Part shown: in pieces, positions 30,952 through 34,620 of the stretch
Layout of the letters: each line of letters starts with the position of its first letter
How positions within the stretch are numbered: position 1 is the stretch's first letter
The notes under the pieces: generated by a model
Told to the model about the DNA's origin: nothing
Seen by the model: only the letters and a program-made list of their open reading frames with translations
The model's database searches: none
DNA from: Gottfriedia acidiceleris
GTDB taxonomy: Bacteria; Bacillota; Bacilli; Bacillales; Bacillaceae_G
Assembly (NCBI RefSeq): GCF_002128425.1
Contig: NZ_NESS01000003.1
Span: forward strand, 186,001-250,000
DNA length: 64,000 nucleotides
Direction: 5' to 3'
Translations under genes and position numbers: made by a program

Positions 30952-32172
30952 TTACAATTTTTGTGGCTGACCTAACCTTTTATGCACATAAAATTTAATT
31001 AACCACATTGAAAATAAAGTATACACAACGATTGCAATAATAAAGTTTATAATCGACAAGCCCTTTATTAAACCAATGATACTAAAAACTAAACTACATA
31101 TTATCAGTAGTATATACAAAAGTGTCGAAATAGATTTTTTATTTTCTTCATTTGTATAAGGATAAATTTTCCACAATAAATGATAGTTATACTGTTTTAA
31201 AATTGACATATTCTGTAGGGAAATTACGTAAAGAAATAAAATGCCAATCAATACTTTTCCAATTAAAGTTGGCACCAAGTAAACTACAAACCCTCCTACG
31301 AAAAGTTGTCTTAAAAACATACTTAAATAGTTACCATTTCGAATAAATGTACGAACTAGTAAATAATTCGCTGCATTTTTCATTGGAAATTTATTAATTA
31401 TTGGATCTGCCCATTTTCTTCGCTTAACTTGTTGCTGAATAGATGGCACATCAGTAAACATATTCGCAAATCGATAAAAAGTCGCTAATCTTGAAGTATC
31501 AAGTTTAACATTTCGTTCCCATTGTACTCTTTTATTTTTACTACCTATTTGAATTGATAATGCATAAACAGCTAAAATTACGATCATTATTGAAAGGAAA
31601 AAACTACTCCATTTACTTAATAACCCATATATAAATAAGAAAGTACCAAGCAACCTTATACAATAATCAAATGCTCGGTTTAATACACCATTATTTGTAA
31701 GATGTAAGAATGAAACAAAAAGATTGTATCCTTTTAATAAGAAAATTATTACCATAAATACGATAAAGCTTGTAGTTTGTCCTAGTAAAAATTTCTTATA
31801 AATTGGATAAATCACTCCTAACATCATTAACATCAAATAAACTTGAACGATGTACGTAATTAAAAAAGAGCGGACAAAGTAATTTTTCATCTTTTTTTCT
31901 AAAGGTAGTAAATAATGTAAATCAGGTCCTTTAAAAAAAGTAGTTACTTGACCTGTTACAACAAGAAAACTGAAAAGAATAGAGATTAATAAAATAACCG
32001 GAAAGTCTGGAGAAATTGTTTTTAACATTTGTTGGTAATAATATGCTCCTCCTCCAAAGCCAAAAACAATCACAAATTTTATATGATCATTAAAAATATA
32101 ACGACCATATCTACTCATTTCTTTAATGAAGCTCCTAAACCGTGCTAACCATAATTCTTTTATCGTACTCAT
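30952..32172 (-). CDS. ecsB: ABC transporter permease EcsB
   Basis: 406-residue polytopic membrane protein with about eight to ten hydrophobic segments, a long cytoplasmic loop (RVQWERNVKLDTSRLATFYR and on) and a basic C-terminal tail. It is the membrane subunit that pairs with EcsA. The start overlaps the ecsA stop by 4 bases (ATGA), the classic coupling for the operon. The transported compound is unknown; Ecs is linked to RasP-dependent regulated proteolysis and secretion in B. subtilis. Confidence 0.9.
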   Translation of the reverse strand: MSTIKELWLARFRSFIKEMSRYGRYIFNDHIKFVIVFGFGGGAYYYQQMLKTISPDFPVILLISILFSFLVVTGQVTTFFKGPDLHYLLPLEKKMKNYFVRSFLITYIVQVYLMLMMLGVIYPIYKKFLLGQTTSFIVFMVIIFLLKGYNLFVSFLHLTNNGVLNRAFDYCIRLLGTFLFIYGLLSKWSSFFLSIMIVILAVYALSIQIGSKNKRVQWERNVKLDTSRLATFYRFANMFTDVPSIQQQVKRRKWADPIINKFPMKNAANYLLVRTFIRNGNYLSMFLRQLFVGGFVVYLVPTLIGKVLIGILFLYVISLQNMSILKQYNYHLLWKIYPYTNEENKKSISTLLYILLIICSLVFSIIGLIKGLSIINFIIAIVVYTLFSMWLIKFYVHKRLGQPQKL

Positions 32173-32906
32173 ATTTCTTTTTCCTTCGTTGCAAAAATAT
32201 AAATTTCATCCAATGAAGCATTTGGCATATTATATTGAGTTTGTAATTCGTTTAACGTACCTTTTGCAATGATTACTCCTTCATGCAAAATAATGAATGA
32301 ATCACAATAAATCTGAGCAGTCGATAAAATATGAGTAGACATTAAAATGCCTGCTCCTTTTTCTTTTTCATTGTTCAAAATTTCTAGTAAATCATTTATC
32401 GCGATTGGATCTAATCCTAAAAAAGGTTCATCTATTATGTATAACTGTGGTTGGACAATAAGGGCACAAATGATCATTACTTTTTGTTTCATCCCTTTAG
32501 AGAATGTCGAAGGAAAATATTTTCTTTTTTCATATAATCTAAATGTTTTTAATAACTCTTCACTACGTTTTTTAAAATCCTTTTCAGGAATATTATATGC
32601 CAAGGCCGTAATTTCAAGATGTTCCTGTAAAGTTAATTCATCATAAATCATTGGTGTTTCAGGAACATACGATAAGCTAGCACGATATGCAGTTGGATCT
32701 TTATCAAATGATTCACTATTAATTAATATTTCACCTTTAGATGGCTTCAAAAGTCCCAAAATATGTTTTATTGTCGTACTCTTACCGGCACCATTTAACC
32801 CGATTAACCCAACAAGCTCATTCTTATTAATCGTAAATGAGACATCTTTAATGACAGGTTGTCTAGTATATCCACCTGAGACATCTTTTACATGCAATAA
32901 AGTCAT
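32169..32906 (-). CDS. ecsA: ABC transporter ATP-binding protein EcsA
   Basis: 245-residue ATPase. Walker A GLNGAGKST near 36-44, the signature FSKGMKQKV, Walker B LYIIDEPFLGLDP and the switch MSTHILST are all intact. It powers EcsB. First gene of ecsABC. In B. subtilis it is needed for normal secretion and protein processing. It lies across a long gene-poor region from hit, where the two RNA elements are found. Confidence 0.93.
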   Translation of the reverse strand: MTLLHVKDVSGGYTRQPVIKDVSFTINKNELVGLIGLNGAGKSTTIKHILGLLKPSKGEILINSESFDKDPTAYRASLSYVPETPMIYDELTLQEHLEITALAYNIPEKDFKKRSEELLKTFRLYEKRKYFPSTFSKGMKQKVMIICALIVQPQLYIIDEPFLGLDPIAINDLLEILNNEKEKGAGILMSTHILSTAQIYCDSFIILHEGVIIAKGTLNELQTQYNMPNASLDEIYIFATKEKEI

Positions 32907-33043
32907 TCTTTACAAATCCTTTCAAATGTACTTTTCCTATATATTTTATTGTATCAAATAATAATCTTAACTTCCTCAATATCATATTTATGGAATACTA
33001 AAAAAAATCCTTCTTTTTTTGAATACTATTTTAGGTTAAGGGT

Positions 33044-33446
33044 ATTATAATTCTTGAAGGGAAAGCAACACACTTTCTTAGTTCAAAATTTGAAATGAGG
33101 TGTGTGTTAAAGGAAATTTAATTTGCGTTCAAACCTAAGTCAGATAATTGTTTAAGTGAAATGAGGTATCTCCAAAGATTAACATCGTTGTCATATACAG
33201 CAATGCTAAATTTAAGGAGATGGTGCGCTTGAACATATTCTATAAAAACAAAGGTCATTAGTATACCAATTTGTAAATGAGGTGTCTCGAGCAGAACATA
33301 TAATTTATTTATAGGTGTACCAATTTATTGAACATTAAAGCAAATGAGGTGTCTGTTAAAGACAATTTAACTTAATAACCTAAAATTTTTTCTAAAGATT
33401 CTTTCCCCTTCATCAAGGAGCAACTATTGGTTGCTCCTTGTTTATG
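33044..33446 (+). ncRNA. Candidate structured RNA, copy A of a tandem pair
   Basis: No credible protein is encoded. The element starts near a TATAAT (33046-33051) and ends at a strong intrinsic terminator (33415-33446). It contains AAATGAGGTGT-type motifs at 33093-33103, 33159-33169, 33275-33285 and 33342-33352. Possible helices include AACACAC (33067-33073) with GTGTGTT (33101-33107), ATCTCC with GGAGAT, and GTATACC with GGTGTAC. A second copy at 33723-34107 keeps the blocks and the terminator while diverging between them. I do not recognise the family, and strand is inferred from the terminator. Confidence 0.65.
33415..33446 (+). terminator. Terminator of RNA copy A
   Basis: AAGGAGCAAC, TATT loop, GGTTGCTCCTTGTTT. 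Confidence 0.88.
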
Positions 33447-33722
33447 TTATTGAAAAAAAATTTATCAATTAAATTGTTGGATTGAACATTGATAAGTAAG
33501 TTGTGTGATATTGATTTCCACTACAGTAACTCGCTTCCAATGAGAAGAGATTTTAACTTATTACTTCTATTATTTATATACTCAGTTTACCGAAACTTTC
33601 TTCCACTTAAATTTCCATTGAAATCCCTTCTGTTTTTCATGCCATTTAAAGTTTTTCTAGTATTAATGTGCTCTCCCCAATATTTTTTTTAAGTTTTAAG
33701 CATACTTTCTTTCATACAGGGC
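33447..33722. other. AT-rich spacer between the two RNA copies
   Basis: No gene is supported. A 67-codon TTG-start frame runs through it but has no SD and a random-like, hydrophobic composition. Confidence 0.45.
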
Positions 33723-34107
33723 ATCATAATTCTTGAAGGGAAAGCAACACACTTTCCAGTTCAAAATTTGAAATGAGGTGTGTGTTAAAGGTAATTTAAT
33801 TTGCGTTCAAACCTATGCAAGGGTAGCTGTTGAAGTGAAATGTCTCCCAAGATAAAACATCGTTGTATAAACAGCAGTGAAAACATCAAAGGAGATGGTT
33901 AGCTTGAACATTATTACTTATAAACAAAGGTTTTAGTATACCAATTTGTAAATGAGGTGTCTCGACCAGAGCATATAAATTTATTATAAGGTGTACCAAT
34001 TTATTGAACATATAAGCAAATGAGGTGTCTATCAAAGACAATTTATAATTACTCCATATTCTTTCCCCTTCATCAAGAAGCAACGTAGGTTGCTTCTTGT
34101 TTATTTT
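33723..34107 (+). ncRNA. Candidate structured RNA, copy B of a tandem pair
   Basis: Second copy of the element at 33044-33446. Long identical blocks include ATAATTCTTGAAGGGAAAGC (33726), GTTCAAAATTTGAAATGAGG, TTAATTTGCGTTCAAACCTA and TAGTATACCAATTTGTAAAT. Three AAATGAGGTGT motifs remain; the second is degenerate (GAAATGTCTCCC) but still can pair with the downstream GGAGAT. The -10-like sequence is CATAAT (33725-33730). The terminator stem differs from copy A in sequence but keeps its pairing (GAAGCAAC/GTTGCTTC against GGAGCAAC/GTTGCTCC). That is compensatory change, evidence for selection on structure. Confidence 0.65.
34075..34107 (+). terminator. Terminator of RNA copy B
   Basis: AAGAAGCAAC, short loop, GTTGCTTCTTGTTTATTTTT. 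Confidence 0.88.
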
Positions 34108-34182: not shown

Positions 34183-34620
34183 ATGACACATGACGCTAAT
34201 TGTATTTTTTGCAAAATTATTGAAGGTAGCATTCCAGCTTCAAAAGTATACGAGGATGATGATGTTTTAGCTTTTTTAGATTTAAGTCAAGTTACAAAAG
34301 GACACACATTAGTCATTCCAAAGGATCATGTTGAAAACATATTCGAAATGAGTGAAGAGACAGCTAGTACATACTTCCGAAAAGTACCTCAAATTGCTAA
34401 TGCAATTAAAGATACTTTTAATGTCCAAGGTATAAATATTTTAAATAATAGTGGTGAAGTTTCAGGTCAAACTGTATTTCATTATCATATGCATATTTTA
34501 CCACGATACGGAAAAAATGATGGCTTTGATGTAAAATGGCAATCAAATCAAAATCAATACACAAATGAAACGCTTCAAGAGATTGCAAAATCTATCGAAA
34601 ATAACATTATCAAAAAATAA
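34183..34620 (+). CDS. hit: HIT-family nucleotide hydrolase/transferase (HinT-like)
   Basis: 145 residues. The histidine triad HYHMHILPR is near the C-terminus (residues ~98-106); an N-terminal CIFCKII zinc pair and the DLSQVTKGHTLVIPK strand are typical. These enzymes hydrolyse nucleoside phosphoramidates and adenylylated intermediates. The neighbour ecsA lies across the RNA-containing gap in the opposite direction, as in B. subtilis. SD AAAGGAAG precedes ATG 34183. Confidence 0.93.
   Translation: MTHDANCIFCKIIEGSIPASKVYEDDDVLAFLDLSQVTKGHTLVIPKDHVENIFEMSEETASTYFRKVPQIANAIKDTFNVQGINILNNSGEVSGQTVFHYHMHILPRYGKNDGFDVKWQSNQNQYTNETLQEIAKSIENNIIKK

Follow-up and report, generated by a model that had tools for sequence, protein, structure and literature searches.

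The stretch analysed here (the window) comprises 64,000 nucleotides of the Gottfriedia acidiceleris genome. Upstream lies a divergent ORF for an ABC ATPase on the minus strand (32169-32906), which we take to be ecsA, and downstream a plus-strand ORF for a HIT-family protein (34183-34620), presumably hit/hinT, both names following the first-pass annotation. In the gap between them we found two copies of one RNA element on the plus strand, at 33052-33445 (copy 1, ~394 nt, with approximate ends) and at 33728-34105 (copy 2, ~378 nt as folded, the start taking in the last base of the -10 element). The first-pass annotation had indeed placed a tandem pair of terminated RNAs between ecsA and hit, and had described them as two diverged copies. 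In agreement with this, a BLAST search of the same genome with copy 1 returned just two matches at E ≤ 0.001, copy 1 itself and copy 2, the latter being 82% identical.

Each copy is preceded by its own promoter, read by eye from the sequence against the sigma-G/F consensus. The promoter of copy 1 is sigma-G/F-like (33021-33049), with a -35 element GAATA (33021-33025), a spacer of 17 nt and a -10 element TATTATA (33043-33049), and that of copy 2 is sigma-G-like (33700-33728; GCATA at 33700-33704, 17 nt, CATCATA at 33722-33728). Promoter sequence therefore begins upstream of the start initially given, 33044. Copy 1 is closed by a helix, P1, whose 5' strand (33056-33065) pairs with 33401-33411 according to the fold, the genus alignment and a comparison of P1 between families. 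It then displays four B boxes (33093-33114, 33159-33180, which is a GAGGUA variant, 33275-33296 and 33342-33363), and one A box (33216-33231), made of GGAGAUGGU (33216-33224) and a UUG start codon (33229-33231) that opens a mini-ORF running to 33261 (predicted MNIFYKNKGH). In copy 2, P1 is formed by 33735-33744 and 34061-34071, and the A box (33891-33906) again combines GGAGAUGGU (33891-33899) with UUG (33904-33906), the mini-ORF running to 33936 (predicted MNIITYKQRF). Its three B boxes lie at 33771-33792, 33950-33971 and 34018-34039, the last two being the counterparts of the third and fourth of copy 1. Hence the totals of A and B boxes are five in copy 1 and four in copy 2, and the two copies do not carry quite the same internal motif series, as had been thought, since, where copy 1 has its second B box (33159), copy 2 has lost the box core.

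Both copies are predicted to be strongly folded. The fold of copy 1 reached -102.9 kcal/mol against a shuffle mean of -74.9 (z -6.4), and that of copy 2 -101.2 against -72.7 kcal/mol (z -5.9), each beating 100 of 100 dinucleotide shuffles. The claim of separate terminators was borne out by two terminator-like sites (33414-33440 for copy 1 and 34074-34099 for copy 2), where 0.7 would be expected. The element was matched in all 12 same-genus genomes searched, and tallying near-full copies by hand gave two or three of them in 11 of 13 genus genomes (own included) and one in the other two. In an alignment of 26 genus copies, 94 consensus pairs were kept in 98% of cells, and three of these pairs had changed on both sides. 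One of the three is the terminator pair that had been put forward as a compensatory change; the change is real but concerns a single base pair, G-C in 10 copies, A-U in 15 and G-U in one. Selection on a structured tandem RNA is supported. With two-sided changes at 3 of 94 pairs, the genus shows weak covariation, and the closing helix compared between families is a stronger sign of selection on pairing. Since tandem units were also found in three other genomes (G244 and G140, judged by box spacing, and G097), duplication is not unique to this genus. We also noticed that the locus of G097 (L199) holds at least three shorter tandem units, ~190 nt apart, with the B variant GCUGGGGUGGUUGUUAAAGAC and A boxes.

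The first-pass annotation had not recognised the element as 6S, T-box, OLE or any riboswitch class. Searching the whole window with the covariance models of Rfam 15 gave no match at the gathering cut-off, and a permissive scan of the region returned nine matches, all below threshold; where these fell on the two copies, E was no better than 0.07 and the score at most about half the cut-off. A match to the eukaryotic snoRNA GlsR7 opposite ecsA (32265-32320; E 2e-5, 32.8 bits against a cut-off of 75) was taken as chance. The absence of an Rfam match stands, but the element is not an unknown one, because its locus is that of ncr1670/S357 and Bvs196. According to the accessible parts of the papers, ncr1670 of B. 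subtilis is a 256-nt RNA of the hinT-ecsA locus listed in an Hfq study (PMC3574147) and is the same as S357 (PMC4410918). Bvs196 of B. velezensis is a Northern-confirmed RNA of 294 nt, located between hinT and ecsA and provided with a terminator, whose forespore expression depends on sigma-F and above all on sigma-G, and whose deletion is reported to decrease the heat and UV resistance of spores and to increase their resistance to formaldehyde (PMC9147052, in part). The same paper gives S547 as the Bvs196 homologue, which looks like a slip because S547 is CsfG in the part of another source at hand (PMC8216469).

The window copies share with these RNAs the place between hit/hinT and ecsA, and by sequence each has a sigma-F/G-type promoter directly upstream. 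The comparison with Bvs196 was extended through the locus of B. siamensis, a close relative of B. velezensis. There, a promoter resembling those of sigma-G precedes a predicted RNA of ~300 nt, in which we found three B boxes (at 35, 152 and 211), a helix closing the molecule and a terminator, and no A box; the published length of Bvs196 is 294 nt (PMC9147052, in part). The copies of the window matched the B. siamensis RNA significantly only over box-sized stretches (best 22 nt, E 5e-4, L070), so that homology is argued from the combination of place, promoter, P1, boxes and terminator. Nor did they reach the thresholds that the Bvs196 study used for BLASTn (E ≤ 1e-10, coverage ≥ 75%, identity ≥ 50%), but as these are search settings and not traits of the RNA, membership rests on place and shared parts. 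The B boxes and the P1 helix, which we propose as defining traits, were found in the window, in B. siamensis and across the order, and a sigma-G-like promoter layout was present at 35 of 53 RNA loci (defined below) and in none of 52 control stretches. We therefore consider it very likely that the pair are copies of the forespore RNA ncr1670/S357/Bvs196, arranged in tandem and each with its own promoter and terminator; judging from homology and promoter, the window copies would likewise be expressed in the forespore.

The differences are nevertheless clear. As far as the available text goes, Bvs196 is a single RNA of 294 nt, whereas the window holds two copies of ~380-394 nt, each with an A box that the B. 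siamensis RNA does not have; and ncr1670/S357, compared by locus alone, is listed at 256 nt against ~394 and ~378 nt here. The pair thus belongs with the published sporulation RNA as an unusual tandem, A-box-bearing form. In the literature searched, mostly passages of papers, we did not see the box architecture, the order-wide spread or the co-evolving closing helix, nor the A-box start codon rule or the dispersed copies described below.

By locating hit genes in 237 of 239 Bacillales genomes, with the HIT-family protein of the window as query, we could compile 100 stretches upstream of hit, hand-chosen to spread over genera and including one shortened by a contig end. In these stretches the pattern A[CT]G[AG]GGTG occurred 160 times on the RNA strand, compared to a single occurrence on the other strand and a single one in the reversed sequence. 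At least two B boxes were present upstream of hit at 53 of the 100 loci (hereafter RNA loci), which span 24 of the 42 sampled families and carry two to six B boxes each; an A box was also present at 44 of them and absent from the other nine. When 26 named loci, out of 80 fetched, were inspected, 11 had at least two B boxes and 15 had none within 900 bases. Sutcliffiella, Cytobacillus, B. safensis, Anoxybacillus, Sediminibacillus and Neobacillus are among the loci with B boxes, and Halobacillus, Planococcus, Exiguobacterium, Ureibacillus and Pontibacillus among those without. A stricter 20-base B pattern, searched genome-wide with totals summed by hand, gave ~204 matches in the 239 Bacillales genomes against 31 for the reversed pattern and, among the matches listed, most adjoin hit while at least 12 lie elsewhere. 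In the other orders of the class (184 genomes), the same pattern gave 13 matches against 10 for its reverse, so the B box looks confined to Bacillales.

Across this range the sequence of P1 differs between families while complementarity is kept within each RNA. The two strands of the same RNA paired with a mean of -23.1 kcal/mol, compared to -15.6 kcal/mol (sd 4.2) for strands combined across families. This test was applied to 37 usable RNAs of 50, because the automatic detection missed the promoter or the terminator in 13; three tandem loci had been excluded beforehand, and the ends are visibly wrong in at least two of the 37 retained RNAs (L222 and L227). Thirty-three of the 37 beat their own cross-family mean, and foreign partners that paired equally well made up a median share of 0.08. 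P1 thus co-evolves between families.

We then describe the boxes that P1 encloses. The B box is conserved over ~22 nt, with the consensus AAAYGRGGUGUYURYNRAAGAC (164 sites). The 3' half has the look of a small hairpin, but the pairing there does not exceed that of shuffled columns, so B is conserved as sequence. The A box has the consensus AAGGRGAUGRU, followed by N4-NUG-AAC, and in 53 of 54 A boxes an [AGU]UG triplet stands exactly 13 nt after the first G. Among 106 distinct A boxes with NUG at this position the codon was UUG in 99, AUG in five, GUG in two and never CUG, and the seven codons other than UUG come from three lineages only, one genus each in families f44, f30 and f17. Such an SD-like box with a start codon at fixed spacing could be taken as the mark of a small messenger whose mini-ORFs matter as peptides or leaders. 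However, no shared peptide was evident by eye among the 106 mini-ORFs, their median length of 10 codons is not above that of shuffles, and nine of the 53 RNA loci do without an A box. On these grounds peptide coding by the A box was rejected, and we regard the messenger reading as very improbable. The earlier statement that no ORF is conserved accordingly holds for peptides, but it had overlooked the conserved combination of a Shine-Dalgarno-like box and a start codon at fixed spacing.

Inspection by eye of the A-box cores revealed no common pairing partner within the RNA. A and B boxes share GRGRUG and similar flanks, and both box types could be variants of one site in a repeated array for an RNA-binding protein, comparable to the protein-sponge RNA CsrB. 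The conservation of B over ~22 nt, without a hairpin above shuffled columns, would suit this reading, as would the presence of ncr1670 among Hfq-associated RNAs with a ratio of 2.77 (PMC3574147, in part), but it leaves the fixed start codon of the A box unexplained, and we consider a protein array unlikely. K-turn and CsrA ideas, weighed by eye, were dropped.

The position of the start codon relative to the A box is that of a ribosome binding site, and the 3' tail of 16S rRNA was examined as a partner of both boxes. In register by eye, the tail forms standard pairs at 9 of 10 positions of B and at 10 of the first 11 of A. In plain duplexes, A paired at 10 of 11 positions, and the B 10-mer through its 6-nt core only (-8.8 kcal/mol); longer consensus strings reached -13.4 kcal/mol for A and -11.2 kcal/mol for B. 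Sites for the 16S tail numbered 6.3 per RNA, compared to 3.2 when the RNA was shuffled locally and 3.3-3.8 when the tail was shuffled, and the mean fraction of composition-matched shuffles that paired as well was 0.024 for B and 0.094 for A. On the other hand, each box keeps a mismatch to the tail, a pyrimidine at 145 of 145 sites in B and an A at 51 of 52 in A, and the conserved second half of B is left unexplained. In predicted folds the box cores are mostly paired, about like other G residues.

When 4,443 rRNA windows of one genome (G011) were ranked by pairing with 25 of 36 distinct A strings and 25 of 44 distinct B strings, the 16S tail came 35th for A and 17th for B. The first rank for B was a perfect 10-nt complement in 23S rRNA (~1449-1458). 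This 23S comparison gave a match in 24 of 30 genomes, the B site being readable in 20 of the 24; we rejected this site as partner because it varies between families, in some within the core, while B is constant. The first rank for A was 23S ~459-469. The A site (~454-472; G011, L243), chosen post hoc and complementary to the A core through its sequence ACCAUCUCC, was identical in 23 of 23 readable genomes and, being invariant, cannot be tested by covariation. Separately, 23S rRNA of G011 carries at ~803-820 a sense stretch, GGGGAUGAGGUGU, that resembles A and B fused and raises the idea of mimicry.

A C-rich forespore RNA could also be captured by the G-rich boxes. There is a precedent in the accessible description of B. 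subtilis RosA, whose G-rich regions bind C-rich sRNAs, one such region possibly doubling as the SD of a 7-aa ORF. This likeness is one of working and not of homology, and RosA differs from the window RNAs in being predicted to be sigma-A dependent and controlled by CcpA, and in binding RoxS and FsrA. The candidate target is CsfG, a C-rich sRNA under sigma-F/G (PMC8216469, in part) that we found in 59 of 60 relatives searched. As a forespore sRNA it resembles the role proposed for the window RNAs, but it is C-rich and differs in locus and sequence, its Rfam family RF00516 lying on the other strand. In all 30 loci fetched (L033-L062), those of the best-scoring 30 of the 60 genomes searched, CsfG keeps the same 41 bases, which include UUUCCCC and UUUCUCCUCUCCCUUU. 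The A boxes paired with the UUUCCCC loop at -10.2 kcal/mol compared to -7.2 for shuffled ones, and with CsfG somewhat better than shuffles (fractions 0.15 and 0.32). However, the B boxes paired no better than shuffles (0.47 and 0.45), and the sites per RNA (5.5 against 5.1 and 3.2 against 2.3 in shuffled RNA) fell within the range of shuffled targets. The CsfG sponge is thus unsupported for B and weak for A, and we hold it to be quite improbable.

Bvs196 has been presented as an ordinary base-pairing sRNA, and the window RNAs might act in the same way on mRNAs such as spo0A and sspN-tlp, the boxes being structural or secondary. In the part of the paper available, thermophoresis shows binding of Bvs196 to spo0A (Kd 3.57 µM) and sspN-tlp (74 nM), and its deletion changes mRNA levels (PMC9147052). 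Yet, in the B. siamensis orthologue, numbered from a guessed start, the published target regions (nt 74-131 and 109-124) fall between the boxes at 35, 152 and 211, and it is the boxes that are conserved over the order and box-sized stretches that account for the significant matches between the window copies and B. siamensis. We thus judge mRNA pairing an improbable main function.

Complete-looking copies were also found away from hit, in G205 (L305) and G225 (L286), from which we argue for action in trans. The G205 copy (L305:905-1342, contig C1 near 3425079) lies far from the hit gene of that genome and has a promoter-like sequence, P1, one A box, four B boxes and a terminator. The G225 copy (L286:1405-1682) has three B boxes and a P1-like closing helix; the fetched stretch contains no hit-like motif, and the gene that follows looks thioredoxin-like by eye.

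The explanation we favour, tentatively and at somewhat less than even confidence for the whole, is that this known forespore RNA acts as a multi-site capture RNA with the 30S subunit as its leading partner. The RNA would be closed by P1 and display repeated boxes of two related kinds, which would capture a partner in trans in the forespore. Action in trans as a multi-site capture RNA is the part that we find probable. The 30S ribosomal subunit, which would be bound by way of the 16S 3' tail and, wherever an A box is present, also by a start codon placed as in a ribosome binding site, is the foremost candidate partner, though still a doubtful one. Tandem copies may then offer more capture sites. 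In a bolder and slightly less likely form, a Bacillales family of Shine-Dalgarno-like arrays would hold 30S subunits in the maturing spore, and each lineage would adjust how many sites it has through the gain of boxes or of entire tandem genes. A 2024 study, in the part accessible, reports two translation silencing events in sporulation (PMC11339384), on which a ribosome-binding forespore RNA would bear if the proposal is true. The box architecture provides a direct hypothesis, open to mutation, on the binding partner of the RNA, as well as a description that could serve to build an Rfam family.

Finally, the hit-side stretches of families f39 and f40 (L236; L193, L206, L237 and L238) contain no B box. 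In three genomes of these families, a shorter element with two B-like boxes was observed at ~1400-1610 of L312, L313 and L314, and it may be a relocated, reduced relative of the RNA.
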